A DNA stretch of 64,000 nt, from assembly GCA_028753945.1 (NCBI GenBank), contig JAPNXP010000009.1, positions 3,968,001 to 4,032,000 of the forward strand. The letters are read 5' to 3'. The notes under the pieces were generated by a model. That model saw nothing but the letters and a program-made list of their open reading frames with translations. It made no database searches and was not told where the DNA came from. Each line of letters opens with the position of its first letter. The stretch's first letter is position 1. The position numbers and the translations under genes are program-made. Shown here piece after piece: positions 15,930-55,404 of the stretch. The stretch is from Hexactinellida sp. DTS-2022 (taxonomy: Eukaryota; Porifera; Hexactinellida).

Positions 15930-16904
15930 ATGTCCTGTCTTGTCCCAGGCTGCAGGTCGAACTATTTAGGCGAAGATACTTCCACTTCAACTTTCATTTT
16001 TTCTAAAGATGAGCGATTACGAGAACAATGGTTCAGATCCATTCCTAGACCAAGGAAGGAGTATGAAGCCAACAAACATTTGAAGGTATTCAATTGGAAA
16101 TTTCACATCCTTATATGTATACTCAATTTAATTTTTATATTTAGGTATGCATACACCATTTCAGAGAAGGAGACATCGAGAGATCACGCCAATATTTGAT
16201 GGACAGCGAACTATAACTGTTCCCCGCGATAGAGTGTCTCTAAAGAAAGGTGCGGTTCCAAGCTTATTTCCTAACTGTCCTTCCTACCTATCTGATACAA
16301 ATTCAAAACCGAAGAGAATTTCAAAAGATGACAAGGAACGATTGATGATGGAAACTGCCTACACTCAGAGCTTAGCTGATAACGAGGATAAGTTTCTTAT
16401 TCATTCATTTTCTGACCTTCTAAGTTGCATTTGATTGATCTCAGGAACAGTTGGATTTCTCACCATTCCGAGGACAATTCTTTGCACTTTTTTAAAATTC
16501 TTATCACTGATTCCGGACCTATAATTGAACGTTCAGTTTTAATTGACCATGATTTGTTTATCAAAGCATTTTGCATTAACAAAATTCCGATTTGAATTTC
16601 AAGAATTTCAATTAATGAAACCAGCCAAATTGAAGGTTCACTTTATGAGGTAGATGACTTTTCCACACCAACTCATAGTGAACACACATCTACTGAACAT
16701 TCGATAAACAATTATGTCAAATTAGATATCAATGAGCTACAAAACGCAATTAACCTCGTTGAATGCGGCACACTAGATCTAGACGTAACTGACAATCTAT
16801 TTACCTGTACTGAATCCATAAAATATTTGTTGTATGTTATTGTAGGACAACTGACAAATTTAATCCATTCAAAAAATAACCGGAGGTATGATATATTAAC
16901 GGGA

Positions 16905-17258
16905 AGACTGAATAAGATCGAAAATGAAGTTGGAAAAAGATCGAAAATCTCTTATGTTGGAATAAGATCGAAAGTGTTTCTGAAGTTGGAATAAGATCGA
17001 AAATGAAGTTGGAATAAAATCGAAAGCATGTTAAGTTGGAATAAGATTGAAAATGAAGTTGGAATAAAATCGAAAGCATGTTAAGTTGGAATAAGATCGA
17101 AAATGAAGTTGGAATAAGATCGAAAGCATGTTAAGTTGGAATAAGATCGAAAATGAAGTTGAAATAAGATCGAAAGCAAGTTAAGTTGGAATAAGATCGA
17201 AAATGAAGTTGGAATAAGATCGAAAGCATGTTTAGTTGGAATAAGATCGAAAATCGTT
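16905..17258 (+). repeat. Left terminal array of the MULE, about 14 units
   Basis: Units of GGAATAAGATCGAAA are separated alternately by atgaagtt and gcatgttaagtt, giving a higher-order repeat of about 46 bp. The inverted counterpart lies at 19535-19829. The array most likely contains multiple transposase binding sites (inference). Confidence 0.9.
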
Positions 17259-17409
17259 GTTTTGGTAATTAAAGGAATCAGATTTCAAAAATGTCATAGA
17301 AGCATGCTTCCAATGGGTAGTCTATGTTAATCGATTGTGCTGAGTTTAAATATGATGTTCTTAATATCATAATATACATATTTGTTATTTTAAATGCATA
17401 GTTGTTATC

Positions 17410-17545
17410 TATTCAAGGGACGAAGGCCCGAGTGCGGACGCGAAGCGTTCGCACCTGTGTAGCGCGAACAATTTCCTATTTTGGCATTTCGAACAATTTC
17501 CTACTTTGGCATTTCGAACAATTTCCGACAATTCAAACTACCCCT
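17410..17545 (+). repeat. About 22-bp triplicated unit next to a GC-rich scrap
   Basis: The unit catttcgaacaatttcc(tac/gac) recurs three times, preceded by gcgaagcgttcgc, a short palindrome. It lies in the 3' flank of the MULE gene. Confidence 0.55.
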
Positions 17546-17753
17546 TTCTATGACTCATGGCCATTTAAAACTTCTTTCAATTTAGTTTCAAATAACTATA
17601 GACAAAAGAGGGCTATTTAAAGCTCAACAAGAAAGTTTTATATAATGATAAATGACTGAAAATTAATTTAGTCAATGAAGGGTCAACAATTTATGATAAA
17701 AGGTATAATGAGAGTAGGGATAATAAGAAAAATGAATCTTTATCTGCTTATAA

Positions 17754-19365
17754 TTATTGGAAGATCTTCATTACTCCATCGATTTTTCCGCGGCAAATAG
17801 GACATTCACGATTAGCTTGGTGTATTTCGTTTGCACATTGTTCACAAAATCCAGCATGAGCAAAATTATGATGTAGAAACGCAAAATTTTCGGTTCTCTC
17901 CTGTAGACATATAAAACATCGAGCTTCCACGCTTTCTTCGTCATCCGATGAGTGTGTTTCTTCTGTAACTGACTGTAGTTCATTCTCGGTACTAATTAAA
18001 GCTACGTTTATGTTTTCTGCCCCTATTGTCAGCGAGATTAAATTTAGATATTGGACCGTGGTATATGTCCCATTTAAAAATCGAGTTTTATAATTAGTTC
18101 GAAGTTGTGAATTTAAGCGAGATCTGAGGTTTGGCATTCTGGTAGTTTCTAATCCATCACTTAACCTCCTGTATTCCAAATCATAGTCTGACATTACATT
18201 TTCCAAGTAAGTCACAAATTTCCATATATTAGGATGATTTGTCTTGATTTTGGACTTCAAATTTTTGTGGTAGGACTCTGCACCATTATTCGTACTAAAC
18301 TCGTAATAAAACACGGACAAATTTTTGCTTCCATCTAACCATGTTTTAACGAAATATTTCTTGAACGAACTGACAAGTTCCAATTCAGCAGTAGTAAGTC
18401 CTAATAATGACAGTGAAAGAGTTGAGTATGTTGGGCGAATTTCTTCTTCAGGCAAAAAGGGTAGTGACATGATTTGGTAGATCCACTTTTTGAATGCTTT
18501 GTTAAGTTTATATAATTTACAGAGGCCAAATTTCTTAATTTTGTCATATATAGCCTTTGTAAAATGAAACCAACATCCTATTAGATTGATACTGGGATAA
18601 ACACTTCTAAATGCACTACGGGAAGATTTTTCGAAATCACACATCGCTGTTGATGGGTTGAAATTGGGAAGGATATCTTTCAGGGATAACAACACTGCTT
18701 TATAAAGCTGTTCATTCTTGCTAGTCATAAGTATATGTATAGCCTGTATAGTGTGTCCTTTAGACGGTATAAAAATGGTCATAAGTTGGTAAAAAGTCGC
18801 GGGACAACTTTGAAGGTGGCATCAAAATGAATACTATCCGATTCTCTCAATTTTGATAGCATTAATTCAGTCGCAAAAACTACTGCAGTACCATTATCAT
18901 TTGCAATTGAAAATCTGTATGTGTTGGTGTAGGAATAAACTATCAGCTGCTCAACAAACTCTTCAGGCGATAAGGGAATATTGGGTACCTCTAACTTCCG
19001 TCTTTTGTACATAGTACTTTCCAGTTTCCTAAAGGTCAGAGAAGATCCAGCTGAAGAACCACGACATCATCATCGAAAATTTCTCTTAGAGTATCAGTCG
19101 AAGACACAGCAGATCTTTTAATTCTGTTTGCTAAAACTATGCTGTCAGATTTGTACTCAGCTTGAGAATGATTGTGTCCTCTTGTCACCTCTAAAAGATT
19201 AGTTCTAGCGTCAACTCTTGCTAAACTATTACAAGCACATTGCTTTGCGAGAGTACATTTAAGATAGATAATGCCATTGTTTTCGCGATTCTTAGTATAG
19301 CTATAGCCTTCTGCTATGTAATTTCAGGAACATTTCCTTTTGCCTTCAATCAAAGAGAATTCCAT
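17754..19365 (-). pseudogene. FLYWCH-MULE transposase with C-terminal RING-like finger
   Basis: Read right to left. An N-terminal FLYWCH-type finger lies at about 19365-19160 (GYSYTKNRENNG, YLKCTLAKQC, ending RGHNHSQ), with an in-frame stop after KRKCS. The frame at 19012-18779 carries HFDATFKVVPRLF, the first catalytic Asp. After a frameshift the 342-residue frame at 18782-17754 carries AMCDFEKSSRSAF (second Asp), GCWFHFTKAI (C-x2-H) and NNGAESYHKNLK (catalytic Glu). Its last 60 residues form a RING-like motif, CFIC, then HAGFCEQC and CPICRGKI, though the third zinc ligand position is not Cys. It is inactivated by one stop and at least one frameshift. It lies between inverted terminal arrays and is their presumed transposase. 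Confidence 0.85.
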
Positions 19366-19534
19366 TTCGTTTAACTAAATACAGACATAATCTATTTGAT
19401 ATAACACTGTAATCCACCTATTCTACCGGTTCATGTTTCAATAATATACATATTGCAAATCCAAGTGCCAAAGAATAATAAAATTAAAATTTCACTTCTA
19501 TAGAAACATTACAAACGCAAACAAATCAAGAATT

Positions 19535-19829
19535 GACATCTCGATCTTATTCCAACATAACATGCTTTCGATCTTATTCCAACTTCAAGAAAATTTTCGA
19601 TCTTATTCCAACTTCAAGAATATTTTCGATCTTTTTCCAACTTCAAGAATATTTTCGATCTTTTTCCAACTTACGAGGTTTTCGAACTTATTCCTACATA
19701 ACATCCTCTCGATCAAATTCCAGCTAGGAGAATTCTTTCGATCTTATTCCAACTTCAGCTATCGATCTTATTCCAACATCAGTTTCGATATTATTCCAAA
19801 TTCAGGTTTCGATCTTATTCCGCTTTCCC
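19535..19829 (-). repeat. Right terminal array of the MULE, about 11 units
   Basis: Units of TTTCGATCTTATTCCAAC, the reverse complement of the left array unit, with spacers different from the left side. It ends at the element end just before atattaac. Confidence 0.9.
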
Positions 19830-21952
19830 ATATTAACTCAAGTATTTTCACATAAAATTCACGAATTATCACCAGCTTGTTATAGAAATATCCAGTCATC
19901 TAGTTGTTTAATTTTGCCACATGAGTGAAACCTGCTTCACATTAAAAACACTCTGGGGATAGATGGTGACTATTTTCGAATTCTTAAGGAAATAACCTCT
20001 AAGTTTAGTGACAGGGAACTTCATGTGATACTTCAAATGGATGAAGTTCATATACGCAGTGATGTATCATATAAAGGAGGTAGGATTTTGGGCGCAATTG
20101 AAATCCTAGAGATCCTGCAACAACCGTCTTTTGGCTGATGGTTTCAAGTCTAATGAGAAAATTTTCAACCATCGTGCGCCTCATTCCTTTCGGTTCTTCT
20201 TCTGCTGCTTATTTACATCCAATAATTACCAAAGCCATATTTGATATCGAGACTTGTGGTCTCTTTGTCGAAGCTTTTTGTACTGACAACTATCAGTTAA
20301 ATGTTAACCTTTATAAGTTATTTTCAGATGACGGGAAATCATTACATCCTAAGGTAGTCTCCTTGTAATCCAGATCGTAATCTTGTATTATTTTTTGATA
20401 TTGTTCATATTATCAAGTCAATACGTAATAATTGGCTGAATATAAAAGACTATGAAAATACTTTTATATATCCCAAGTTTCATGCATGTACAATTGAACA
20501 TCAAAATCCCTAAATCTATCTACCTTGCACTCAGTTAAGAATTTCTATACCAACCGCCGACATTATTTTGAATCACAGCCAGCTGACGGGGTCAAGATAT
20601 CCTACAAAATATTATGCAGCATTTGAAGATCTTCGGACCTTGTTCAAAGTTGACAAATTTTCTATCATCAGATGGCCCCAAAATTCACATCAAAAGCATG
20701 TTGGCCATCTCAGTTAGAGCGACAGAAAGTGAACTTGGCTCTGAGAATTTTTCATGAATCTACAGTTGCAGGTCTTTCTATTTTCATTAACCATCCTAAC
20801 ATTTGTAACCCCCTTCAAACTGCTGATTTTCTTAACTTCATAAGTTATATTTGGAGCATCTTCAATATTAATTGGGTCGGGAAAGACATACGTTTCAATA
20901 ATCCATATATAGCCCTTCTCCACTATAACGACGAAAGATTAGTGTTTTTGGAAAATGTTGTTAAATGGCTAGATTGTTGGAGAGCTATTCCATCAACTAG
21001 GTTTAAGCTTGCACCTCAAACGTTTACCAGTTTAGACACACTTGTCTGGCTCTTCCATTCTTAAGTAATAGATTAACCTTAGAATGTGATTATGAATATT
21101 TTCTGACCTCCCGAATACAAAACGACACATTAGAACATCACTTTGGACTTTATCGCCAAATGTCTGGGTCCCACTAGAACATATCATATTGTCAAATTTT
21201 AGAAAGTGAGCGTAAACTTCAGTTATCTAACCTTCTTAAGTTCTATATTTGAACAAGCTGGTACCGATACGATATGTATTAAAGAATATTTAAAAAGTTT
21301 TGCAGATAATGTCGAAGAAAGACATTCAGAAATTGATTTAGAATTAAAACAGATGAGTTGCTTGACATTACTAACCCTATATTTGATAACTCTCAAATTG
21401 AATGCCTTAACTATATTGCAGGGTATGCAGTGTTTTCTTATTTTAAACAATCCTCTGGATGTTCAAGTCTGCCATGATTTATTGACTTCTTCAAAAGATA
21501 TTCAAATTATTAACGATATAGGCTTTTCATTATTTAATCTGCTCGCTAGAGGTTCCCTTAAATCAGTGGTTCCCTATAATTCTTAACTCGTGAACCCTCT
21601 GATACCCGAAAATTTGGTAGTGAACCCCCAGGACATACCTAAGTCAGAACGATTTCTACTGCCAAGGGCATCGATTATATAAACAGGATGGGGGGTGAAC
21701 ATCATATGGTCTCATTAGGATGAAAAGCGTCAGTATGTAATAATTTCACAAGGTTAATCTAAAGTATACTTGTATTTATAGACGAGCGAGCGCAGCGAGC
21801 GAGTAAAAGTTTCTGGGTGAAGAGGATTTTAAAATTACATTGAGTATTACTAACAATTTATGACAACAATATTTTGCTGATTAGGGAGGATAAAATTATG
21901 AGGTGCACCAATATTGGGGGGGTGCGCGAATGCCCAAAGTCATAGGTTGTGG

Positions 21953-23321
21953 CATGGCCTACTTAATATACGGCTATATATGTCGCCGAGAAGGCCATAA
22001 AACAAAGAGGCCAGTTTCTAATTTTCAAAATGGAGAATTGATCTTTATTCGAATAATTAGCAATGATAGAGCTTAAAAGTGTATTATAACTATATAGGAA
22101 TATGGTATCCAGGTATGTCATGATCTGATGACGTTATGGTTATTTTGGTTGCGAATTAACTTGTTTTTATAGCATACTTTTAACACAGTTAAAAGCGTTA
22201 TAAATGTTCAAAATTGGAACATGGTTATACCCAGAAGTAGTAGAATAAAATATATCGAAATTATAAATGGAATGTTGACTCATTATTCCTCGGTTGCCAT
22301 GTAAAATGTTTATTTCCTAAAATGTGCCATAACTCAAAAACTATGAATGTTATGTAAACTAGGCTGGTACTAATCTATTTGGAATTGGAAACTTCCTATT
22401 CATCGATAATACATTTCCTATGCCTAACTTCAATAATTTTTGAGATATGAGATAATTAACACTTAATTCATTACAGTACACCCTCGCTAATCCGAACCTC
22501 GCTAATCCGAACCCTCGCTAATCCGAACACGGGATACTAAAATATTTTTCTAATAATAGTGGGAAAAAATCGTAAATATTGGTATATTGTAATGGAATAT
22601 CAAAGATAAGTCTCAGTAAGGAGTAAAATAGATGTTTAGTGCGGATTAACAAGGTTTGTACAATTTTGGTTCGGATTATCGAGATTCTCATTTATAGATG
22701 CCCATATGAAATGCATTACTTCACTAATCGGAACAGAATTTTTTTGAATCGGAACACCTCTGTTCGGATTAGCGAGGGTGTACTGTATTAGGTAATGACT
22801 CACTATCTCAAAGATTATTGAAGTTAGGCATAGAAAAGTATTATCGATGAATAGGAAGTTACCAATTACGGATAGATTAGTACCAGCCTAGTTTACATAA
22901 CATTCATAGTTTTTGAGTCATGACACATTTAGGAAATATACATTTTACATGGCAACCGAGGAATGTGTCAACATTACTGATTATAATTTCGATATATTTT
23001 ATTCTACTACTTCTGGGTATAACCATGTTCCAATTTTGAACATTTATAACGCGTTTAACTATGTTAAAAGTATGCTAGAAAGACAAGATAATTCGCAACC
23101 AAAATAACCATAACGTCATCAGATGATGACATATCACAATTCTGGAGGGTGCTATGTATACCTGGATACCATATTCCTATTTAGTTATAATACACTTTTC
23201 AGCTCTATCATTGCTAATTATTCGAATAAAGATCAGTTCTCCATTTTGAAAATTAGAAACTGGCCTCTTTGTTTTATGGCCTTCTCGGCGACATAAATAG
23301 ACGTATACTAAGTAGGCCATG
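21953..23321. mobile_element. Palindromic element with CATGGCCTACTTA ends
   Basis: The left arm 21953-22473 is the inverted partner of 22786-23321. The outer ends are CATGGCCTACTTAATATA and, reversed, CATGGCCTACTTAGTATA. It is flanked by ttgtgg on both sides (21947-21952 and 23323-23328). Related fragments occur at 2165-2262, 33382-33490 and 35985-36817. There is no protein. A Tigger-like MITE occupies the centre of the palindrome. Confidence 0.85.
22474..22785. mobile_element. pogo/Tigger-type MITE with TA target site
   Basis: The ends are CAGTACACCCTCGCTAATCC and, reversed, CAGTACACCCTCGCTAATCC, flanked by TA at 22472-22473 and 22786-22787. The left end repeats the ctaatccgaac motif three times. 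It is 312 bp and non-autonomous. Confidence 0.92.
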
Positions 23322-23885
23322 CTTGTGGTAAATGGACCAGTACGGACCAAGCCCTCTTTGAAAAAGCGTCCGGTATCTTACAGAACACAATATTAATAAA
23401 TCATATAGTCGAGTAATCAGAATTTAACTTGCAGATTATAACTATATTTTAAAAACTTTATTTTAAAATGATAAAATTCACCACTCCTTGTGCCGTGCAT
23501 CCCCGAGACGTGTCCCGTGCACCCCCAAGGGGTTCATGCACCACAGGTTGGGAACCACTGCCTTAAATATCCATCAGAAAATGTTTATCAATCTGTCCTA
23601 ACAATGTACGAAATATTTATTAAGATCGATAATCATCCTAAATTAAGTCGTCGATTTTATGACGGACATTGCCTTAGAAAATTAGTTGACATTTCATTGC
23701 TCGAAATAGAAAGAAATTCCATTGAAATATGGAGGGGGTGGTGTATATGTATGGTTTCAAAATGGGATATGCTTAAGAAATTGTTAACAACAGTGGTTAA
23801 TTGCATTTTATCTAAGAAAGTTAAAAATTTTAATAACATTGTAGTTGGTCGCGATAATTCAAAACTTCAAAAAATTTCTTCCTAA

Positions 23886-24500
23886 TACTTCTTATCCTTC
23901 TAGAAAATCAATTAAAATACTTCAGAAGTTTGCATCTTTACTATAACTACTAGACGAGGAGCGGTGACATCAACCAGTTAAGAACGCAGCTCTCACTGCT
24001 AGGCAAAGTAACGCTAATTTCTATTTCAAGACAATACTACTTGTATATTTACTACATACTACATCTTTGTTACTACTGGTTTTATTATTATAGATATTTT
24101 TATTATTCTTCGATTCTTGTAAGTGTTTAGAAATACATTAAACTGTCTTTTATTTGATTCTAAATAGTCTAAACTAATCGTATGCAATACTATGCATTAT
24201 AAACCTAGATATTATTATGGAATATTCAGCATAAACATTATATAACCACGATAGTAATAGTAGATTCTCTAAGTTACTAACCATTCCCTGGTCCAAAAAT
24301 TTATAAGCGCGCCATTTACTTACGTATAGAATGCTATGGCTCAACTTAATGCTCGAGATGAAAACTTCATAGTTGTTGTATCTGGGTGTTTCTTTCATTT
24401 ATCGCAGAACATTTATCGACAAATACAGTCGAAAGGTTTGACTGCACTATATCTTGAAGACGAAGAATTTGCAATAAAAATGAAAATTTAGTAAGTCTAG
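23886..24500. other. AT-rich gap between two P-like elements
   Basis: No gene or element end was recognised. Confidence 0.35.
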
Positions 24501-24582
24501 CCGGGAACTTCGTAATACAGGACTTACGACTGGCTATAATTAGCTATGACTATGGATTACAAGTAGATGGTAGTGGAGCGCG

Positions 24583-24956
24583 TCGTTAGTCCTACTCCAC
24601 ATGTAGACGTTAGTCCTAATTGTAATATGTAGGCGTTAGTCCTACTAATTTGAAGTGTAGGCGTTAGTCCTACTCTTAATACTGGCGTTAGTCCTACTAA
24701 TTTGAAGTGTAGGCGTTAGTCCTACTCTTAATACTGGCGTTAGTCCTACTAATTTGAAGTGTAGGCGTTAGTCCTACTCTTAATACTGGCGTTAGTCCTA
24801 CTAATTTGAAGTGTAGGCGTTAGTCCTACTCTTAATACTGGCGTTAGTCCTACTAATTTGAAGTGTAGGCGTTAGTCCTACTATTAATACTGGCGTTTGT
24901 TCTACTAATGTGAAGTGTAGACGTTACTCTCATAGATGGAGTTAGTACTAGTAGAG
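24583..24956 (+). repeat. Left terminal array of the MULE, about 14 units
   Basis: The core GGCGTTAGTCCTACT is spaced alternately by aatttgaagtgta and cttaatact, giving an approximately 52-bp higher-order repeat that is almost perfect between 24640 and 24890. The outermost units are degenerate. Confidence 0.93.
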
Positions 24957-25193
24957 ATTAGAACTTAGTGAAGTGTAATTTTGAATTGTTATTGCGGATA
25001 TTCAATCACAATTGATAATTAGAATTTGAAACCCAAATTGGACCTAATATATGTCTTCGCATTTGTTAATGTCATCGAATGTCACTTTTGACTAATTTAT
25101 TATAAGAGTGTGTCAATAACATTATTACCCATAGTAATTATATAAGGGTGACTAATGTAATCGTTTAAATATTACGTACTACTTTCTTAACAT

Positions 25194-26801
25194 ATGGAGT
25201 ATAACACCGAGGAATATCAACGCGGAGGAGGCAAACCCATTACCACTTCAGATGGATATAAATATTTTCCCAATAGGAAAAAGTCTGATTGCGTTTACTT
25301 AAAATGTGTTCTTTTCAGGAATGGTTGCAAAGGCAGCGCTAAATTAAATACTCAAATTACTTTAGTTTATCCAAAGTCATTGCAAATCATGAGGTAGATG
25401 CATATAATTCGGAAGTGTTTGCATTAAAATCTAGATGCAGGACAAGAGCAAAGAATTCTCGCGACAACTTTCGCGACTTATTTAATGATACTACTAGAGC
25501 CGACCCTTCAGCTCACAAAGTCACTTACAAGGAGTGCGAATCTCTAATGTTTAGAGCAAGAAGAACCTCACAACGGATAATTCCGAAATCTGCGATCGAA
25601 TTTTGTGATCTATTACCAACAACGAATTTCGCATTGAATTTGAAGGCAACAATCACTTTAGGTGACAGAATAGCCTTGATTTTTTTCTCAGAGAAAATTC
25701 ATATCATGATTGGAGATATTTCTGATATCCAATTTGATGGTACGTTTTATGTAGTACCCAGAATATTTTATCAACTGTTTACCATACTTATTTCTATTGG
25801 CACGCACACTCTCCCAACGATTCATTGTTTGATAACTCATAAAGATGAGGAATTGTACACCGAAGTTATCTTGAAAATAAAAGATCTTTTCCCTCAGTTC
25901 CAACCAACTAACATAATGTCCGATTGGGAAAGAGGATCTCGAAACTCATTTAAACATGTTTATCCAGGAACTAGGATAAATGGATGTTGGTTTCATTACA
26001 CGCAAGCTATTGGGCGTAAGATACAAAAATATGGATTAACCTCTTGTTATCGAAATATCCCAGAGCTAACTATATTTGTAAAGAAAATCATGGCAATTCC
26101 ACACCTACCTTGCGATTTAATACACTACACTTACTCTCTTCTCCAGCCCCCAGCTTTGCAACAAATAGATCAAACGAAACTTGATGGATTTCTTAGGTAT
26201 TTTAAAAGGTATTGGCTAACACAAGTTACCCCAAGTGAGTTATCAGTATTCGAGTTGGAAAATGTAACAAATAATGGCGCTGAGTCTTATCATGCAAGGT
26301 TGAAATGCTTATTCAAGACTGGACATCCTCGCATTTGGAATTTTATGCACACTCTTAATGATTTAATTACGGATTATGATAATGATATCTCTCGATTAGT
26401 ATTGGGAAGAGAAATTACTAGATCAAGGAAAAAACAAGTCAAGATTAATATTGAACATCGAAAAATATGCAAAGAAAAACTTACAAGTGGTGTATATACT
26501 CCTTGGGGATTTTTAGCCTCAATAACCCATTCGCTTACACAGACGATTACATTTAATGAATCTGTCTTATACATTTCTGATGATTCGGATGAAAGCGAGG
26601 GAGAAGAACAGGGAAGTGCATTAGAAAATCAAAATTTATGCGCCGTTTGCCTAAATGTACGTTGGGGTCACATGGTTGTTCTTACCATGCAAACACGCAA
26701 ACTGTTGCACCCAGTGTAGCAACACTATTACAGAATTGGCACAAACCTGTCCAACCTGCAGAGCACCCATCCTAGACAAGTTCCAGATATATTTAAACTA
26801 A
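25194..26801 (+). pseudogene. FLYWCH-MULE transposase with C-terminal RING finger
   Basis: ATG at 25194 opens a FLYWCH-type finger (DGYKYFPNRKKSD, YLKCVLFRNGCKGSAKL). A frameshift near 25385 leads into ANHEVDAYNSEVFAL. The 434-residue frame at 25415-26719 carries IQFDGTFYVVPRIF (first catalytic Asp), NIMSDWERGSRNSF (second Asp), GCWFHYTQAI (C-x2-H) and NNGAESYHARLK (Glu). An acidic stretch, DDSDESEGEE, precedes a RING finger: CAVC, then after a frameshift near 26680 PCKHANCCTQC and CPTCRAPI, ending at TAA 26799-26801. The RING ligands C-x2-C, C-x-H, C-x2-C and C-x2-C are all present. Only two frameshifts are apparent, so this copy decayed recently. It is the presumed transposase of the surrounding arrays. 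Confidence 0.88.
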
Positions 26802-26956
26802 TTAAATCGTTTATCCCAGTATAAATATTACATTCATTTTATTTATTATTCTCGTCAATTAAAACTTCCAATTTGAAATTTTCATTCAAAATCATGTGCA
26901 AAATAAACGAATGTAATAAAATTTTAAGAGTAGGAGTATTGACATTTATGAGAGTA

Positions 26957-27114
26957 CAGTTGAAACCGGATATTTTTAACACATTCTTTTCACGAAAATT
27001 TGTTAAAATATCCGATTGTTAAAAATACCCGATATTACAACAACAACAATAATTAATTATTTACAAGAAAATGTGTTAAGAATATCCGGTGTTAAAAATA
27101 TCCGGTTTCAACTG
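26957..27114. mobile_element. Tigger-type MITE with TA target site
   Basis: The ends are CAGTTGAAACCGGATATTTT and, reversed, CAGTTGAAACCGGATATTTT, with TA at 26955-26956 and 27115-27116. It is 158 bp and lies just inside the right array of the MULE. Confidence 0.9.
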
Positions 27115-27183
27115 TAGGACTAATGCCTACACTGAGAGTTGGACTAACGCCTACACATGCAGTAGGACTAAAGCATGCGACCC
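27115..27183 (-). repeat. Right terminal array of the MULE, three units
   Basis: Three units of gtaggactaa(t/c/a)gcctac, inverted relative to the left array. It is far shorter than the left array. Confidence 0.85.
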
Positions 27184-27192
27184 GATGGTAGT

Positions 27193-27271
27193 ATTATTGT
27201 TGAAAAGAAAATGCTTTAAAAATATCCGATTGTTAAAAATATCCGGTGTTAAAAATATCCGGTTTCAACTG
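27193..27271. mobile_element. Right-end fragment of a Tigger-type MITE
   Basis: It matches the right end of the MITE at 26957-27114 (aaaaatatccggtttcaactg followed by TA) with one extra internal aaaatatccg repeat. No left end is present. Confidence 0.7.
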
Positions 27272-27400
27272 TAGTTCAAGATTTGATTATTCGATAGTCG
27301 TATATCGCTTTCGTACTATTTATGCTCATGATTTTTAAATTATTCTTGACCTAATACTAATTTCATTTTACTCGTTTGGATATACTTAGCTTAATTCACG

Positions 27401-41410: not shown

Positions 41411-41465
41411 TATATACTTATTAGTGAGGCCACTTAATTAATGAATAGGAAATTAGGAATATAAA

Positions 41466-42514: not shown

Positions 42515-42709
42515 ATGGCACCCTCACTTTATAGGAGCCTCCGATGGTATTGGCATTCGAGACTGAAACATATGAAAAATGAATTGAGAACAACAACGCT
42601 ACAAGGAAAACTATCTTCCCTGAGCATCATGTGTATTGAAAGTGACAAATTGCGGCAATTAACTTTCAATGACATCAAAGAAGAATTTACTCGCCAAAAG
42701 GTTCGTTAA
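42515..42709 (+). pseudogene. hAT transposase C-terminal fragment
   Basis: The frame ends LQGKLSSLSIMCIESDKL, then FNDIKEEFTRQKVR. This is the helical C-terminal dimerisation end of ZMYM1-like hAT transposases (compare MSELRSDNLVEISIE in the copy ending at 9595). The rest of the gene is missing. Confidence 0.65.
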
Positions 42710-43698
42710 AAAAAACCTTGCACCAACATGCAAGGTCTTAAGTAACTGTATTGCTGTCCGAGCCCACTTAATTGATACTGTATAACCTGTACATATTATT
42801 GCTTTCATAAGTAGGGGCGACTGGGCGTTACTAACTTGTACTTAGGAAGAGGTGTTAATACTCTCTTTTCAGTGCTTAGCCTCCATTTTCTATAGTATTC
42901 GCCTCTTTTTACTGTGCCGACTATACTATAGTATAGTGGCCCAGTATTGAAATCACTGCCTTTATTATTATTATTTTTATTTCTCCGTAGCCGGTGCCCT
43001 GGCCACACCTGTATACATTATGGGCTGAAATTTGGCATGTAGTTGCGAAGTGACCGTCTAATTTGCACCTGGGGTTACAATTTTTGATCAAATAATTTTA
43101 ACACCTATTTCAACTAATTATGGCTCATAGCATTAAATAATTAATAGTGAGCTTCATAAAATTTACATATTTGGATAGAGAATTAAATTCTACACCTTTT
43201 CACAGTGCACGAATTTTCAAATTGGGCTTAGATTGTGCCACAATTGAGTTTAAAATTTCCTTTGTTTACTCGCACTTCAATCTCAGTAAAATTGTTGAAT
43301 CTAATTCCATTGTTTCAACTTGTAATAATTATATTGATTTCACTTGTTAAATCTTAACCCTATTGTTTCAACTTGCGATAAATATATTGATTCAACCGTG
43401 ACCTTCGATATAAAAGGCCTGAGTGCTGAGCAAAAATCAGTGTACCATGGATTACTTAAAGTGCATTTTTTTATTCACCCATAACATTAATAATCAAAAT
43501 AACAATGACTATCAACAGATAAATCTTTGTTTTTAATTAATTAATATGTGACATAGTTAGTTTAGGTTCACAATCCGTTCTTATTATATTTGGTTATTAG
43601 TTCTTCAAAGAATTACTTGGATGTGTACGAATATTATTCCTTTACTTTTTCTATTTCATTACTAATTTAGCTAATAGATATATTATAAAAACACTTAG

Positions 43699-46416: not shown

Positions 46417-46603
46417 GACCGAGTTTTGGAGAAATAAGTGCCCTACTTGCAGCACGATAGGATGGAATATATTAAAGAAGATTATTTTTTCCGCGACCAA
46501 CTGCATGCTAGCAAATAAAGTAAAGAATATGAATTCATTGAAAAGGACTATGACTGATAGCTCGAATATATCTCGTAAATACAATAAAATAAAATCAAAA
46601 TAA
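46328..46603 (+). pseudogene. Frameshifted C-terminus of the THAP transposase
   Basis: This frame carries FLTGPSRQILVSL, KCPTCSTIGWNILKKI and NCMLANKVKNMN. It aligns with VQGPSKQILVSL and CSSCNMIYWHILQKM in the copy at 51015-54728. It is the missing end of the 43699 frame, displaced by one small indel. The C-x2-C...W motif is shared by all copies in the window. Confidence 0.85.
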
Positions 46604-47112
46604 TCAGATTTATGTGTTAGTATTCTCTTTATTGTACTAGCAATAGCAATCCAGTTTTATTATTGTTGTTCTTGTGTGATATTATAAAAATCAACACATC
46701 TGTATCCAATTTAATCAATAGATTCTTAAATAGTATAGCATTTCATATGCAAATGTATGCACTTTAAGTAATCCATGGTCCAAGTGAGCACTCAGGCCTT
46801 TTATATCGAAGGTCACGATTCAACTTATAAATTCCAGCTGGCTTCTATTTAATTGTAGTATTACTATACAATGGATTAAATAAAATAAAATAATATATGG
46901 AATTTGTTGACTCTACTCAACTCACCGTGGATAACATTGCTAAAATAAATAACTAATAATATAATATATTATCAATACAAAATGAATGAATGGCAATAAA
47001 CTCAAGATGGTTTATGATAGAAACAAACTTCAAATTCAACAATCGTTCCTTGTGACTCCGACCACTTAACAAATGGTTCTTCACACCTTGGGCGTTGATG
47101 ACTTGGCGAAAA

Positions 47113-47241
47113 AAATCCAAAATTGCAGCCTGCGCCGACAGCATGTTCCTTTGGAGGCACTATCAATAAACCACCAACAAAATATAGTGCCACCAAAGGA
47201 ACATGCGTCGGCACAGCCTGAAATTTTGGATTTTTTAAGCG
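47113..47241. repeat. Hairpin inside the hAT element
   Basis: Arms 47113-47163 and 47189-47241 are inverted copies (gcatgttcctttgg on the left, ccaaaggaacatgc on the right) with a loop of about 25 bp. Confidence 0.85.
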
Positions 47242-47670
47242 AATTTACTATCATTGGTTCCTCTCACCGGGATTTTATTAAACCCCAATAAAACTCATTG
47301 GGTAGGGCCTCCGACACTCATTTAGCTTAGGGGCCTCAACATACCTTAGTCCGGCTCTGGATGGAGTAGATAAGAATGTCAAACGTAATACTAATAATGT
47401 GCACCCAGTCCTCAGGAAGTAGACCTTCACATGTATAGATAATTTCCCAAAGTTCGGAAATGCTTAGCAGAAAGGAAGACTTGATTTAGAGAATAACAAT
47501 CATCTCTATGGAGAAACTTTCTCCACTCATCCTTTTTGTTCCAGAGAAGATTCTTCTCCCAATTTGTAATATAGGAATGGGTTCTTCGCCATCATAACCG
47601 CTACGACGTTAGGAGCTGAAAATCTAGCTGAAGTAACTCTATAAATTATCAAACTACATATAGTATCTTT

Positions 47671-47795
47671 GACGGACAATTCGTCGACAGACAATTCGTC
47701 GCCGAACAATTGGTCGCGGACAATTCGTCGCCGAACAATTGGTCGCGGACAATTCGTCGCCGGACAATTCGTCGCATGGACAATTCCTCGTATAG
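47671..47795 (+). repeat. Left terminal array of the third MULE, about 8 units
   Basis: About 15-bp units, mostly ggacaattcgtcgcc alternating with gaacaattggtcgc. Confidence 0.92.
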
Positions 47796-47839
47796 AAAAT
47801 TAGTCTCAAAGATGTTGTTGCAGAACATAACCACGAATG

Positions 47840-48728
47840 AGGTGTGAACGATAAATTATTTATTTTCCCACTCCAGAAATTTGACGTTCTCTCCTGATCG
47901 TTATATGGTTTCTAGTCTAAGCTGTACAACATAATATCAAAATTGAGTATATTAAGGTTAAATTACGGCAGATTCATGTAAAAAAACACATAAATTTCGT
48001 TTTGAAGTAAGATGTTTAATTTTCACATATATAATAGAAGACATTATAGCTATATCGAAACTGAAAACGAAATCGAATTATTTTGAATAAATTCGATTTT
48101 ATGGGGCGTGCAGTTTTATGGTAATACAAAAGTCCCATAGGGGGATTTCTTCAGACTCCACCTGATAAGTGTGTCGATCTCAAGATCATTATTAGCTAAA
48201 GACATATTATGTGCGATATATCACATAGATCATCGTTATATGCTGTAGGTGACTGGTTTAGAATTTTGATTTGACCTAAATAAAAAAAGTTGCGACCTTT
48301 TGAACTAAAGAAATCATTAAAAAGGTCATGTTTTTTATGAGATATTTGATAAAATGTTTGAAAAATAATTTCAGAGTCATAATTCAAAAATGTAAACCGA
48401 CTACCAACTCCGTACGCTTATAATCTTTCAATATTGATTCTGATAACAAACATTGATGGCCGCATTACCAAATTACACTATAATATCGACCACCACTTTT
48501 TGAAATCGCCCTATGGGAGATTTGTATTAGCCAAATATTGAAACCGACAAAAAATAAAAAGTATAATATATTGAGACATTTTCTTTTTTGTTTATTGCTT
48601 TGTATCGTACCTTGATCTATTTCTAACAATTACAGATTAATACAAGAGATTTCATTCCCGTGGGGTAATTTAACCTTAATAGTCAATAGTAATTACGTAA
48701 TTACAAAAATCATATTTACAAGATTCTA
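47840..48728. other. Leader of the MULE gene, no other feature
   Basis: AT-rich sequence between the left array and the transposase start. No promoter motif could be assigned with confidence. Confidence 0.35.
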
Positions 48729-50140
48729 ATGGCTACTTCCTTAACTTCTTTTTCGATTGAGAGGATTACGAGTGAAAAGAAGAAAGATAATGCAACTATA
48801 CAAGGTTTTATTTATACTTTAAATAGGAAATTTCACGATATTGAATTCTGGGTCTGTGAAAAACGCGGGATCTGTAAAGCGAGGTTACAAACAAATAAAA
48901 ATCAATTAGTCAAATCTACAGATCCTTCCACAATACCTAGTGAACACTCCCATAGTTCCGATGTAATTAGGGTCGATATACTAAAAGGGTATACAAACCT
49001 CAAAGGCATTGCTCGAAATTCTGATTCAAGTACACGGACTCTTCTTGCTAATTCAGTGGAAGGAATGACTGCAGAATGTATTAACAAGTTGCCTAAACTT
49101 GATTCTGTTAAGAGACTATTAGAAGGTGTAAGAGAGGAGAAGAAGAATACTATGGTAATCCAAGTTCTTGTGCTGAAATAATAATTCCTCACAGATATAA
49201 ATTCACACTCAATGGTAACAGCTTCCTACTGTTTGATTCTGGAGAAGGTGATATGTATAGAATGATGCTCTTTGGAACTACAAAGTTTTTATCGATACTT
49301 AAAGAAAGTAATAACTGGTACTGTGATGGTACATTTAAAGTGGTTCCAAAAGATTTTTTCCAACTCTACACTATCCATGTACAAAGAGATGCATATATAT
49401 TCCCTTGTGTGTATGCCTTGTTACAGGCTAAGACTGAAGTCACTTACGAAAGATGCTCTCTAAACTACTCCAGCTAGAACCAGAATTAAATCCCACATCT
49501 ATAATAGTGGATTTTGAAAAGGCCGCGATTAATGCTTTGGAAAATTTGTTCATTTCCTGTGTTTATGGATTTTTCTTCCACTTATCTCAAAACATTACCG
49601 GAGAATTCAAGCTGATGGATTAGCTACCGCGCGTATCAACAAGATGCTGATTTAGCTTTGAAGCTGAAGATGCTGCCCTACCTGGCTTTCGTACCCGAGA
49701 TCGATGTAATTGATTGTTTTAGTATTTTGATGGAAGAATATCCCCAATCTGGGATGACGGTAGCGAAATATTTTGAAGACAACTATATTGGAAAACAACT
49801 CCCAAATGGTTCTCGCAGGACGCCACTATTTCCCATAAGAATGTGGAACATGCATCCAAGAGTGATGGATCAAATGCCTAGAACAAATAATAGTGTAGAA
49901 GGCTGGCATAATGCATTTAGACATGGCATTGGTCATCCACACCCAAGTTTTGTCAAACTCTTAAGTTTTTTGCAAAAAGAGCAATCGCTTCAGGATGCAA
50001 TTTATGCAAAGTGGGAAGGAGGAACTATAAAGAAACGTTCGAAATTGAGTGATGAACGTGAAAAAAGAATCTATAATATCGTTAGCAAATATGATAATCG
50101 CGAAACCTTGGAATATCTTCGAGGGTTAGCATATAACTAG
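48729..50140 (+). pseudogene. FLYWCH-MULE transposase without RING
   Basis: ATG at 48729 opens a FLYWCH-type finger (GFIYTLNRKFHD, FWVCEKRGICKARL, ending EHSHSS), then IRVDILKGYTNLKG. After a stop near 49181 a second frame shows IIIPHRYKF and WYCDGTFKVVPKDFF (first catalytic Asp). After a frameshift near 49455 comes SIIVDFEKAAINAL (second Asp). The C-x2-H core reads YGFFFHLSQ, so the usual Cys is lost or misaligned. The frame 49658-50140 carries RTNNSVEGWHNAFRHG (catalytic Glu) and ends LEYLRGLAYN at TAG. No RING follows; the dispersed repeat starting at 50135 abuts the stop codon, so a lost C-terminus is possible. It has at least two breaks and is inactive. Confidence 0.85.
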
Positions 50141-50520
50141 CGCGCTTCGCTTGCTAGGTCGCTTCGCGGCAGAACACAACCAAGTACCAACCGCTTCGCG
50201 GTTGGTGTGTGGTTTATATACTCCTAATATTGATTATTAAGCGTGAATAAGCCTAAATAGTAGAATTTAAAAATGTGAAATTTAGTGATTACGTCATCAT
50301 ACGATAATGAGTAAGCATATTGGTGATCTGGTGTGACCAACGTGTCCGCATGATTAATGTACATTTTCTATTAAATTTTCAGATTTTTATCTTTTACAGG
50401 GCGCGAATTAAGTGCGTTAAATCAATTTTCAGGGTTCTCGAAATGTGACAATGACGTCATAATTTGTCGAAGTATGAGAAATTTTGAGACGGAAAGCTCA
50501 ACTTGTTTACGGGTGCCAAA
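50135..50520 (+). repeat. Dispersed repeat shared with 35437-35985
   Basis: Same order of motifs as the other copy (aactagcgcgcttcgc, cgcttcgcggttggtgtg, gattacgtcatcat, gggcgcgaatta, gggtgccaaaa). It begins exactly at the stop codon of the MULE gene. Confidence 0.8.
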
Positions 50521-50600
50521 ATGTTCCCCTATATGCCAAAAATCATTCTGGAAACCGTCCACTTTCTTCAATCAACTCGGAACATACAAACAAATATATA

Positions 50601-50794
50601 CAGTCAGGTCTGCTTATTATGAACAAGATTTCGTCTGCTTAATATGAAGATTTTTTATTATGAACAAACCCTACGGTCCCAATTTAACAACTTACATAGG
50701 GTTTGTATTAAGTTGAGTTCGCTTATTATGAAGTCTCTCTATTATGAACACAATTTTTGGTCCCTTGAATGTTCATAATAAAAGAACCTGACTG
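50601..50794. mobile_element. Tigger-type MITE with TA target site
   Basis: The ends are CAGTCAGGTCTGCTTATTAT and, reversed, CAGTCAGGTTCTTTTATTAT, with TA at 50599-50600 and 50795-50796. It is 194 bp. Confidence 0.9.
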
Positions 50795-52639
50795 TATATA
50801 TATACACCCAGGCTTGTGTTTTAATAGTATAGATATGGAATTTTGATTATAGCATAGATGACTCAAGTATAAGGATAGACCATTGAATAACCATGGATGA
50901 GCTCAAAGGCCATCCTACTGCATTGGATAAAATACAATGCCATGACTCTTTCATTGCATTAAGTCAACTAATGACAGTAAATTACAAAACAACAAATATA
51001 TAACTGATCTAAGTTCAGTCTTTCTTAAATTTCTTAGCCTTTCGAGAGTTGTCTCCACGTAAACTAACTTGAGAATTATAATCTTTAACCTTATTGGAGA
51101 TCAGGCAGTTCGCGATTACACCAAACATTTTCTGCAATATATGCCAATAAATCATGTTACATGAAGAACAAGTATCACCCCAAGTTTCACTGCAATTGTT
51201 TTCTATATACTCTATAGCTAGAGAAACTAATATCTGTTTTGAAGGTCCCTGAACTAGTTCTTTCATTAGCGAGATGTCATTATCAATTCCGAAGAAAATT
51301 TTCCATAAAATAACAACTGCTCCCAAGATAGTATCTGATGGCCACTTAAGTGATCCTCTGTCCACAATTTCCAAATATGCGAACCTTGAATCTTTGGGCA
51401 AATCGATCATGAATTCTTTGTCGGTGGTGAGGTAATCGAGACAGATAGGGCATTTATTTGATCGTTTGTAAAATTGATGCACAACAAAACCAGTCATGAA
51501 GGCTAAAGCTTGCAGAGTTTGGGTGTCATAATCTATCGCTTCTAAATTTGCGAGTTGGTTCATTATCCGTTCTTTTGTTTGAAGTGATATAACTGAAGAG
51601 TTCGGGTCATCTACTGAAAAATTTGAGAATCGCTTAATAAAATCTTGAACAGAAATTTGTTCTGCACTTAATTGGTACAATTTAAGCATACTAGATACTT
51701 TCAGTCGCCGCTCAGACTCTAGTATTTGACAATATGATATATGATAATTGGCTACAGACATTTGTCTGTACAGTCCAAAATGGTGCTCTAACGCATTATT
51801 CTGTAAAAAGGAGGTCAAAACATATGAAAAACCACAGTTGTTAGTTAAATGACGAACTAAAGTGGCAATGCTATGCACGTGTGCCTTACTAGTGAATGTC
51901 TGGCGGGTGAGTGACGCTTTGTTTTCTTTTGTTGTTGCTTCCCAGGTTTCAATCCAAACTACAATACGCTCTAGGAAAGAAAAGCGTGGATCGTCTCGTA
52001 CTAGGGGTTTTGAAAATTCGTCTCTCAAACGTGTTCCTTTCTGTGGTGTACTGATATTAAATATTTTCCAGATTTTTAAAATGATAGATATAAATTCGGC
52101 TGTTTGTGTTTTGAATGCATTATCTCGCGAATCATTCTGAATTTGCAGGCCAGCAATAGTTGATTCATGAAATATCTTGAGTGCGAGTTTTACGTTCTGT
52201 CGTTCCATGCTCGAAGGCCAGCACGATTTAGCTGTCAGATGGTGTGCAATTTTGGCGAAAGAGTGCTGTTCTTGCTTGTAGAGTAATCTCACATCTTCAA
52301 AACAAGCATTGTACTGGTTAAGAGGATATTTGATGGAGTCAGTGGAAATATCATCAATAGAGGGAAAAAGGAATGTGTGGTTATAATCTTTGGTGTTTAG
52401 CCAATTGTTCCGAATACATTTCAATATGTGAACCGCATCAAATAACAGGAAAATGTTCCTGGTAATGTCAACTGGATGAGGAACAATGGAAGTAAGAGTC
52501 TTTTGATCAGAGGAAAACTTCTTAAAAATGTTAACATTTTGAGGGTAGTTATCAGAACAAATTACCTGAACGAATAGCCCGCATTTTTCGATTTCACAAA
52601 TAACAGATTTTATGGACATATGTAAATCTGATGCATTGG

Positions 52640-53372
52640 CATAGGCGTCGTTGCAGGGGGGGCGGGGGGGGCCTGCCCCCCCCGAAAAAATGTCGGGGGG
52701 GGCAGCATAGGTCTCGCCCCCCCCAGATTTCGCATACCTGCCAACCTATTTGAGTCATGTCCCTGTACAGGGCTCCAATTTTCCCCTGTACATTGGCCAA
52801 AATCCATGTACACACCCCCAAAAATCTCTCGCTCGCTCGTCCAAGGAATTATTATTCACTTACATTGCTAAATTAGTACTGGGAAAGGAGAAAGCATTTA
52901 ATTATATATTGTACAGGGAATCCCTGAACGCTTGAATATATATATATATATATAAACCAGTTGTGCCTTTATGTGGCCAATGCAGAATGCACGGCAGAAT
53001 ATACTCCCATCACTGTAGACATTTTAGGCATTATTTGAAACATAATTAGTAAATTAAAAATCGCCAAAAAAATGTTTAAATCCCTGTACTGTACAGGGAA
53101 TCCCTGTAGGTTTGGCAAGTATGATTTCGTCTCCTCAGCTGGCGTTTCTCTTGAAAATTAGTTGAAACAGTGGAGGATAACAGCATTTAATTTGCCAAAA
53201 ATTTCAAGTTACATAAAGCTTTCTCAGTAAATTTGCATCTCTCTTACGTTATTTATTTACTATTTATGCGTGATTTTTGCGTATTAATTGCAAAATAAAA
53301 TAAATGTCATATAAATGTTCTCTGGCTGCCCCCCCCAGATTTTCAGAAAAATTGGAAAGTTCGACGCCTATG
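52640..53372. mobile_element. hAT MITE inside the THAP gene, perfect 8-bp TSD
   Basis: The ends are CATAGGCGTCG and, reversed, CATAGGCGTCG. Duplications tgcattgg lie at 52632-52639 and 53373-53380. Long G and C runs (52660-52730 and 53330) sit near both ends, and it carries a nested MITE. Dropping it with one TSD joins STNA to SDLHM in frame. Confidence 0.92.
52734..53122. mobile_element. MITE nested inside the hAT MITE
   Basis: The ends are ATACCTGCCAACCTA and, reversed, ATACTTGCCAAACCTA. gatttcgc (52726-52733) and gatttcgt (53123-53130) flank it (7 of 8). Ccctgtacaggg motifs lie inside both ends, and a short (ta)n tract lies at about 52935. Confidence 0.75.
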
Positions 53373-55171
53373 TGCATTGGTAGAGGACAGAGGGAATAGG
53401 CGAACAATGGTTGACCATTTCTTGTGGAGACTAGAAACCATTATTGCTAAAACCGTCTTAATTGGATCTTCTGTGTCAAGTGTCGGTGCAATGATATTAC
53501 CCCCCTTATACGCAATCTCTTACTTGACATGAACTTCATCAATTTGAACGATGACGTTCTTTTGCTGGAGTGAGAAGTCTTTTGTTGCATTTTTTAGAAA
53601 AACAAAGTATTCGCTCTCTAACCCAATAGGATGGTACAGCCTCTGTAACGTGTGGAAATGTGGGAGTGATAAACAGTCAAGAGATTGCAAGTAGTTATAA
53701 CAGGAGTGGGAGTAGATATGAGCCTTGAGCGACAAAACCTAAAAATACAAAATTGTATAAATTCACAAATATATAAGGAGCTTGTTGTTGAAATATATAA
53801 GTACGTACCTGTGTAATAATGTTGTATCTGCGCCTATTTTTTGGAACCATGATATTCTCAACCTGGCCTAAAATGAAGTGAAGTCGAGGGAGGTATGTAG
53901 ATATCACATTATCTTCTTTATTCAGTTTTAGATCTTTTGCGGTACACTCCTCTATTTCATCAATTGCATCAATGATATGTACTTTAGCTGAATTAACATG
54001 ATGACATATAGAATCAGTCTCAGAACCAGTCTTTATAAATGAGCTACGTACAATTTCACTAAAAAGAGCTTCAACTTGGCGTATATCATTTAGCGCATTC
54101 AGGGAGAGAGAAATCGGTTCGTCTTCGTAAAAGCGTTGGTAATTAAATCAGAATTAACAGATAGACTGGCTTCAATTGATATCCTTGATTTTTCTAACCG
54201 TGGGAGTAAAAAATGAATTGAACTATCACTCGAATACCAAATAACCCAGTTCTGAAGAGATATCAAATTGAGCTTTTGCTTCAATGCATCAAGAGTTGCA
54301 ATACAATACTTCTCCTCATCAGCTTTGAATGATTGTTGACTTTCCTTCATCACCTGAGTAAAGAAATGCTCTTCTTTCTCCTCAAACTTCAAACGTTTAA
54401 TATGTTTAGATCCTACGGGTGCTGAAAGATATGTGGGACATCCTGGCAAGAAACATGGAACGGCATCATTGCGAAGGACTGGCACTTTATGAGGGAATTC
54501 TTGAAGGGATGCGTTTGGACCTGATGGCACCGAGTATGTCCGTGAGATGTCTTCATCGCGGAAATGTTTTTCACAAACAAAAGTGTTAATATGGATATCT
54601 ACTAAGTGTAACGCTGTTATCCACTTAGATCTGACTTCTGGCTCCACAGGTAGTTTAAACACGGTTACATAACCATCAGTAGAACTGTAGTTTCCTTTAC
54701 AGCCAGGCGCAGAACATTTGTTGGGCATAATTTGCTAATTAATTGAATATTAAAGATTATAGTAAAGTGAATTATCATGAAATAAATCGAAAATATATAT
54801 TATTGTAGACTACTTAATAAATTAAGGATACATATCACAAGAAATAATAGTGAGACAGCCATATTTTTGAATTAAACTCTTATAAACTGATAGTTGAATG
54901 TGACTTTTACAACAAAAAATTATATTGTGGTTGGGTAATAAAATGGCCTTCCCACTCATCCTTGGTGAGTTTTCATTTGTAATGGTATATCCTTATACTT
55001 GAGTCATCTATGATTATAGCTATTTAACTAATTTACATTATATACTTTCCCTTTATTTATCTTAATTGTTTTCCTTCCTCGTACCCATATTAACCACTTC
55101 ATTCATTAAAAATAATAATAAGGTATGTATGTGCGCTTTATATCTAACAAAATCTTTGAGACTAATTTTCT

Positions 55172-55205
55172 ATGCGACGAATTGTCCGGCGACGAATTGT
55201 CCGCC
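55172..55205 (-). repeat. Right terminal array of the third MULE, two units
   Basis: gcgacgaattgtccg occurs twice, inverted relative to 47671-47795. It is duplicated at 60417-60450. Confidence 0.85.
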
Positions 55206-55404
55206 ATTCATATAGTATAAAGTTAAAGCGTGAACGGTTAAAGTCAATTTGGAGGATTTATATACTAAATTAATTAATTGATAAGTGGTAGATTATATAG
55301 AATGAAATTGTAGTATTTACTCGTACTAAACTTAGGTCTTATACTTTTAATAATTTATTTGGATTATGGTTCATTAAAAATTATATAACCTACAGTACAT
55401 GATA

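Follow-up and report, generated by a model that had tools for sequence, protein, structure and literature searches.

A stretch of 64,000 nucleotides from Hexactinellida sp. DTS-2022 (contig JAPNXP010000009.1, positions 3,968,001 to 4,032,000 of the forward strand), hereafter referred to as the window, carries three Mutator-like elements (MULEs) with FLYWCH domains, named A, B and C, each lying between inverted arrays of a short repeated unit and flanked by a target-site duplication (TSD) (Table 1). The elements had been proposed in a preliminary description of this DNA, and the numbers of inward units given there for the left and right arrays (14/11, 14/3 and 8/2 in A, B and C, respectively) were confirmed. 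The TSDs, proposed as 8, 9 and 10 bp, were recovered at these lengths for A and B; that of C is perfect at 9 bp and reaches 10 bp only if one ambiguous base (the last C) is counted as flank. The arrays themselves stood, but not as plain tandem units of 15-20 bp, because the repeated word consists of 15 bp plus a spacer, which gives a period of 23-29 in A and mostly 24/28 in B; the period in C is 14-16. Domain pieces of a FLYWCH-MULE gene were found in every element, although all three genes are frame-broken and that of C is also split.

Table 1. Coordinates of elements A, B and C and of their parts in the window.
Feature	Coordinates	Strand	Remark
Element A, FLYWCH-MULE-RING, clade A	16901..19829	-	Inverted arrays and TSD
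A left TSD ATATTAAC	16893..16900	.	Perfect 8-bp match to 19830-19837
A left array, 14 inward units GGAATAAGATCGAAA	16909..17252	+	
A right array, 11 inward units	19539..19821	-	
A MULE domain and C-terminal RING (PF13920)	17754..18821	-	Single frame
A FLYWCH finger, predicted reading strand GYSYTKNRENNGIIYLKC	19039..19323	-	Frame other than that of the MULE domain
Element B, FLYWCH-MULE, clade B	24575..27183	+	Inverted arrays and TSD
B left TSD GATGGTAGT	24566..24574	.	Perfect 9-bp match to 27184-27192
B left array, 14 inward units GGCGTTAGTCCTACT	24582..24952	+	10 exact; outermost and innermost worn
B right array, 3 worn inward units	27113..27175	-	
B FLYWCH finger frame, predicted reading strand GYKYFPNRKKSDCVYLKC	25191..25394	+	
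B MULE transposase frame (PF10551)	25343..26719	+	37.8 bits, cut-off 27.6
B RING-like remnant, third frame	26655..26801	+	By eye
Element C, FLYWCH-MULE, second clade	47667..55209	+	Split by nested insertion(s)
C left TSD ATATAGTAT	47658..47666	.	Matches 55210-55218
C left array, 8 inward units GGACAATTCGTCGCC	47674..47792	+	Period 14-16
C right array, 2 inward units	55173..55202	-	
C FLYWCH frame	48693..49178	+	PF04500 35.1 bits in 48732-49178
C MULE domain start	49112..49477	+	Weak Pfam match, 15.7 bits; relatives <=96% identical
C remaining transposase, another frame	49616..50140	+	
Inserted DNA in C, frames taken to be THAP/P-type transposase on the minus strand	50137..55010	.	Absent from copy L069

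The FLYWCH and MULE domains occupy separate frames in both A and B, and the coding sequence of C is spread across several frames. The MULE domain of A (PF10551) scored 41.6 bits against a cut-off of 27.6 and its RING 35.7 bits against the Pfam cut-off of 27, while the relative L069, 96% identical to C, reached 43.5 bits for the MULE domain (cut-off 27.6). Close copies were identified for A (L010, 97% DNA identity across 2.5 kb) and B (L040, 94-97%). The elements measure approximately 2.2-3 kb and are largely occupied by the transposase gene, in which D214, D276 and E396 are invariant among nine aligned relatives and, by comparison with Muta1 of Aedes aegypti, probably form the catalytic triad. 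All 11 fingers of alignment A2 match the FLYWCH profile PF04500 at E<=1 (best 5e-7), and HxH is retained in most fingers; the FLYWCH domain of L053 falls below the cut-off (19.8), and L024 gave no match at E 0.01. FLYWCH belongs to the WRKY-GCM1 fold, and the G-x-K-Y-x-x-S-K of the finger, by its position before the zinc ligands, presumably sits at the place of the WRKYGQK strand; it is termed here the predicted reading strand. A C-terminal RING is fused to the FLYWCH-MULE protein in L024, L053, L055 and element A (clades A and B) and is absent from the clade C proteins L069 and L071.

At <=4 mismatches, the A, B and C units have 61, 21 and 24 hits in the window; 20 first-order Markov sequences per unit averaged 31.9, 7.1 and 5.8. 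Every match to the A or B unit at 0-1 mismatch falls within the arrays, and those to the C unit fall within the arrays or a duplicated right end at 60418-60447. Outward from the array, a short motif (starting GGGA.. or GG.GCG in A and B) is followed by the perfect TSD. Perfect TSDs were present in 27 of 56 element rows compared with 2-4 of 56 in shifted controls, A being counted twice; the TSD of L071 sits inside the L071 array and is doubtful. The terminal inverted repeats (TIRs) are built of tandem repeats, as in type 2 foldback elements.

The same arrangement recurs across the genome searched (112 Mb, 18 contigs), in which the protein pieces of A, B and C found at least 116, 95 and 150 matches, respectively. 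Of 961 MULE candidates in this genome, 150 were scored. Sixty A/B loci (L009-L068, A and B themselves included) and three C loci were retrieved with approximately 1.5-kb flanks, and the A/B loci were scanned with 26 unit consensus strings, some differing merely at a worn last base, at <=2 mismatches. The genome search for inverted arrays flanking MULE genes that the preliminary description had proposed bore out its expectation, with two or more inward units on at least one flank at 57 of the 60 loci (both flanks in 47, one flank in 10, neither in three). Sites were directed inwards in 980 cases and outwards in 10, and 37 sites lay inside gene spans. The full-length relatives with ordinary TIRs that would have spoken against the proposal were not seen: among the three loci scored as arrayless, L013 was so scored since the gene span used covers its array (18 of the 37 internal sites), and arrays were not found in the flanks scanned of L041 and L067. 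Among the C loci, L069 and L071 bear arrays at both ends and none was seen at L070. A convincing FLYWCH is lacking in eight further MULE loci (L001-L008; best E 0.21); L008 shows an ordinary long inverted repeat, and no inverted repeat was found within the 1.5-kb flanks of the other seven. Pattern hits in viral contigs included none confirmed as a relative.

The reading of the arrays as independent satellites beside MULE genes was examined by locating exact unit pairs in the genome. The 27 exact A-unit pairs occur at four places, each at an A-family transposase, and the 24 exact B-unit pairs likewise at four, none of them more than 2 kb from a B-family transposase, so independent satellites were rejected for A and B. 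Ten of the 12 exact C-unit pairs lie at element C or no more than approximately 1 kb from a listed C transposase and one in the duplicated right end; the last, C6:2256049, has none within 6 kb among the C transposase matches listed, which speaks for a satellite origin. The reversed pair pattern was found 0 times in the genome search for each of the three units. Together with the position of the TSDs outside the arrays, these data make independent satellites extremely improbable.

The units of A and B, described at first as different in each element, do differ but are diverged homologues. Compared by eye, they agree in 7 of 15 columns, and they share one ungapped alignment of 15 columns that takes in all 55 A/B loci whose unit is clear (the alignment leaves out L013, L039, which is B, L041, L043, L067 and L070, where the finder failed or picked another repeat; the clade C loci L069 and L071 were left out of the A/B comparison). 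The clade A unit reads GGAAT(T/A/C)(T/A)G..., and clade B forms include GGCGTTAGTCCTACT, GTCATTTGTCCGAAT, GTCACTTGTCAGAAT, GTCACTTGTTAGAAT and GTCGATAGCTCGACT. With families delimited at 85% catalytic identity and represented by a single row each, 31 families result, in all of which G8 and A13 are invariant; in held-out families they were retained in 11 of 13 and 13 of 13, respectively. Unit homology also extended to 16 of 19 held-out loci, with arrays of at least four units; the exceptions were L079 (two sites), L085 (one doubtful) and L082 (stretch too short). The held-out family set drops L073, L084 and L088 as duplicates and L079, L082 and L085 for want of a unit consensus. C units fall outside the A/B profile, those of L069 and L071 being alike by eye. 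Between families at 40-79% catalytic identity, likeness is higher in the unit than in the flanks (e.g., 0.72 vs. 0.44, 103 pairs).

Likeness of units is 0.92-0.93 within an arm, 0.91 between arms and 0.60 between families (55 elements). The numbers of units are far less stable: the inequality of the arms noted in the window is general, as the two counts coincide in only 4 of 51 two-armed elements (they differ by a median of 3 and by at most 13, some arms being possibly cut by the end of the retrieved stretch), and counts vary within one family (e.g., 9/12, 3/16 and 10/10). Three copies at least 99.9% identical, located at three sites and one of them carrying approximately 190 bp extra, have 15/14 units each and a duplication of their own, and therefore represent recent moves in which the arrays remained unchanged. 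The changes in array length are consistent with slippage or unequal exchange. A structural role, in which the repeats would serve a foldback hairpin instead of protein binding, gains from the ability of inverted arrays to pair and from the published name of such elements, type 2 foldback, as given in an extract of the source. However, 47 of 51 elements have arms that differ in unit number, the spacers between units are less conserved, and a hairpin offers no reason why the units follow the finger; it is thus regarded as very improbable. As to spacing, unit distances alternate between 24 and 29 (sum 53) in clade A and between 24 and 28 in part of clade B, and are constant at 31 in most of clade B (L009-L071); these spacings are near 5 and 3 helical turns.

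Whether the unit follows the FLYWCH finger was assessed by several comparisons. Across the 31 families, the correlation of unit distance was 0.65 with catalytic, 0.64 with FLYWCH and 0.62 with strand distance, and in partial Mantel tests the unit-strand correlation given the catalytic domain was 0.34 (p 0.0005). Within clades, the strand given the catalytic domain reached 0.40 (p 0.0015) and the catalytic domain given the strand 0.19 (p 0.001), with window means of 0.18 for columns 1-72, 0.13 for the linker, 0.01 for the catalytic domain and -0.03 for the C-terminal part. On a tree of 30 families built without FLYWCH (L034 being left out), the co-change of the 20 strand columns with the unit had a mean z of 0.76 (p 0.00085) vs. 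-0.02 for 166 catalytic columns; the values were 0.86 (p 0.017) for the 10 columns before the strand, 0.22 (p 0.16) for the remaining FLYWCH, 0.29 for the linker and -0.04 for the C-terminal part, and the highest column among 432 was column 28, in the strand. In leave-one-out prediction of the unit from the nearest family, the seven best of 517 18-column windows start at columns 20-26 (0.866-0.879), compared with an all-window mean of 0.816 (sd 0.027), 0.860 for the whole catalytic domain and 0.864 for columns 73-535. Widths of 10, 14 and 24 pointed to the same place and a width of 30 gave the same first three windows; the variability of the strand is middling and does not explain the lead of its windows.

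Several results weigh against a specific link between strand and unit. The unit-catalytic correlation given the strand is still 0.41 (p 0.0005), as expected from plain common descent. In the within-clade scan, where the family-wise 95% level is 0.43 and the null maximum 0.52, the top window comprises columns 3-16 (0.50), a linker window (86-99) reaches 0.49 and the strand windows 0.45, and the top single column is C-terminal. The 21 columns with the strongest co-change include eight catalytic ones, and a z of 3.07 is not unusual as the maximum of 432. At 30-39% catalytic identity, unit and flank are equally alike (0.55 both), and aligning the rows on the unit in itself favours unit columns over flanks. 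Finally, in the 13 held-out families the strand lost its lead over the rest of FLYWCH as a predictor of the unit (0.677 vs. 0.675; whole FLYWCH 0.694, random 0.563). The proposed co-evolution of unit and FLYWCH was thus upheld in part: the N-terminal region is tracked beyond relatedness, while the strand gave no advantage on held-out families. Our reading of these comparisons is that the N-terminal finger region, strand included, probably informs on the unit more than equal pieces of the rest.

Passive inheritance, with old and functionless minisatellites carried between the ends and mutating at the pace of the element, would account for the overall correlation between unit and catalytic domain and for the part that persists once the strand is removed. 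It fits poorly with the almost uniform inward orientation, with units more alike than their flanks at 40-79% catalytic identity, with the two invariant bases, and with strand windows as the best unit predictors, and is considered improbable.

At the level of single residues, a rule set beforehand for families of 31-bp period linked the residue at column 26 to unit bases 10-12 (Q to CCG, R or H to CAG, K with N22 to TAG). The cases it covered in such families were L079 (CCG) and L088 (CAG), both kin of training families; L078 (K, H22), with CAG, and L090 (K, H22), with TCG, were unforeseen by it, and L066 (Q, TAG) was contrary to it. Outside the 31-bp period the rule fails, in L075 and L077 (Q), both with TCG, and in L080 (R, H22), with CCA. 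The GGAAT start expected of all clade A units held in L083 and L086 and failed in L087. Post hoc links in 25 clade B families, obtained without tree correction, comprise S27-A14 (14/1/1/9), K28-G12 (20/1/0/4), F25-G4 (6/0/2/17) and F/Y22-C11 (13/0/4/8); S27-A14 was not significant in clade A (p 0.30), and columns 37, 41 and 42, not singled out beforehand, score higher by mutual information. Set against any residue-level link are the failure of the rule to be borne out, the reduction of S27-A14 to four independent pairs (3.2 agree, 0 oppose) and of K28-G12 to one once the tree is considered, and the fact that tests on so few independent pairs cannot reach significance.

In WRKY proteins, the WRKYGQK strand inserts into the major groove, where it reads the W-box TTGACC/T (extract of PMC4012195). 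A profile search of solved structures returned only the RRS1 WRKY (E 0.18) and FLYWCH1 (E 0.31), neither significant, and the RRS1 match did not cover the strand. TTGAC occurs at unit columns 6-10 in 4 of 44 families and is treated as a lead only, because by a rough estimate approximately 1% is expected per unrelated 15-mer. A residue-by-residue code is plausible. It is possible, although we hold it to be doubtful, that the following is true as a whole: the several dozen matched pairs of finger and 15-bp site would represent an evolved recognition code in which residues 22-28 (G-x-K-Y-x-x-S-K), the presumed counterpart of the WRKY strand in the major groove, set unit bases 4-14, the best candidate being residue 27 with base 14; the ancestral core would resemble the W-box TTGACC, a specificity shared by plant WRKY proteins and animal transposons; and the fused RING would let the bound array gather ubiquitin ligase activity.

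Element C differs from its copy L069, which is 2166 bp long with arrays at both ends, by an insertion of approximately 4.87 kb: the match between L069 and the window breaks off after 50136 and resumes at 55011. The minus-strand frames within the inserted DNA are taken to encode a THAP/P-type transposase, and CATAGATGACTCAAG... near 50852 and its inverse near 55000 resemble the termini of the insertion by eye. Assignment of the array-bearing elements to P elements or Galileo was rejected, the array-bearing genes being FLYWCH-MULEs and the P-type gene in C nested and absent from L069. Two pairs of stretches in the window are 100% identical, 53719-56897 with 58964-62142 (3179 bp) and 58483-58965 with 62138-62620 (483 bp), and reflect either duplication in the very recent past or an artefact of assembly; the second copy of the C right end (60418-60447) lies inside the duplicated stretch. 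A 16-bp repeat (TTAAAAATATCCGGTG-like) at 26980-27106 and 27216-27263 is found inside and outside the right end of B, as if the right arm had inserted into another repeat or been reassembled with one. The window also contains other long inverted repeats, each with inner repeats, at 10151-10742 with 11031-11623 (96%) and at 21952-22497 with 22762-23322 (88%), and a further MULE fragment at 14954-15412, 46% identical to the C piece.

Taken jointly, the arrays probably are multiplied binding sites for the FLYWCH domain of their own transposase, with unit and strand changing together. The three elements would be dead or dying copies of animal-type (Phantom/Muta-like) Mutator elements, and their inverted arrays would be multiplied sites for the N-terminal FLYWCH finger of the element's own transposase. 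Many finger-bound monomers would load on each end, after which the DDE domains would cut at the GGG... tips that lie immediately beyond the array. Site number would change freely and the unit copies within one element stay alike, with the 15-bp unit and the finger's DNA-reading strand changing jointly between families, each of which would recognise mainly its own ends. We infer binding, multimer loading and exclusivity from comparisons of sequence. An alternative is that the arrays are bound by FLYWCH mainly for regulation, as in promoter control or protection from silencing, and not for cutting. The left array lies directly upstream of the gene, and in Arabidopsis VANC binds short motifs that form fast-changing tandem repeats in Mutator-type elements (extract of PMC5735166). 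However, the arrays occur at both tips, inverted and adjoining the TSD, and the protein predicted to bind them is the transposase itself, through one of its domains, as opposed to a separate protein; regulation as the main role is rather unlikely, and both roles may coexist.

The anatomy of these elements is already known from Muta1, Tm1 and Phantom, for which extracts of the published descriptions were available. In Muta1 the TIR comprises a short terminal motif and a 12-bp subterminal repeat that occurs nine times, separated by 3-4 bp, and 10 of 12 long-TIR Muta families have repeats of 9-15 bp, whose number varies in derivatives (PMC5225508). Muta1 and the Muta families (Phantom group) share with the present elements FLYWCH, a DDE MULE transposase and 8-9 bp TSDs (PMC5225508); unlike in Muta, the spacers here are longer (period 23-33 in clades A and B), the arms are unequal, clades A and B have a C-terminal RING, and many families with homologous units occur in one genome and were compared with their fingers. 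The extract of PMC5225508 reports no such unit-finger comparison for Muta families. Tm1 of root-knot nematodes, with a Phantom transposase and Foldback-like TIRs, is likewise a FLYWCH-MULE with a 9-bp TSD and composite TIRs holding a variable number of an approximately 14-bp motif; its FLYWCH lacks the last His (PMC3169594), whereas HxH is kept in most fingers here. A survey table, in the part available, includes Phantom among FLYWCH-MULEs with foldback-type repeats. Other systems show comparable designs, such as Galileo (P superfamily, THAP), with several transposase-binding sites shown in its long-TIR repeats (PMC3688188), although its transposase superfamily and finger are different; the same role in Foldback and Phantom repeats was called untested in 2013 (PMC3688188), and no later test was found in the literature, as far as the available extracts extend. 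In the Mutator-type VANDAL elements, the VANC protein and its tandem target motif change together, but VANC acts in anti-silencing and the motifs lie in non-coding regions, not at the tips (PMC5735166). In Hermes (hAT, BED), short subterminal repeats are bound by the fingers of a transposase multimer; it belongs to another superfamily and its repeats are scattered without a regular array (PMC10368747).

The comparisons suggest that what is new is a radiation of unit types within one genome whose changes go with the FLYWCH N-terminus and predicted strand more closely than with equal-sized catalytic pieces. No comparison of FLYWCH and unit across families was found in the literature, a weak negative as the original Phantom description was not covered, and no C-terminal RING on a FLYWCH-MULE was found in the extracts available, where RING is recorded for other MULE groups in the survey. 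The question of binding becomes a matrix experiment in a genome with 31 or more divergent families, each having its own finger and its own repeated site, and such an experiment could yield the first specificity rules for FLYWCH domains, also present in animal transcription factors. If the proposed explanation is true, transposon families within one genome would become mutually non-recognising by shifting their enzyme and their ends jointly.

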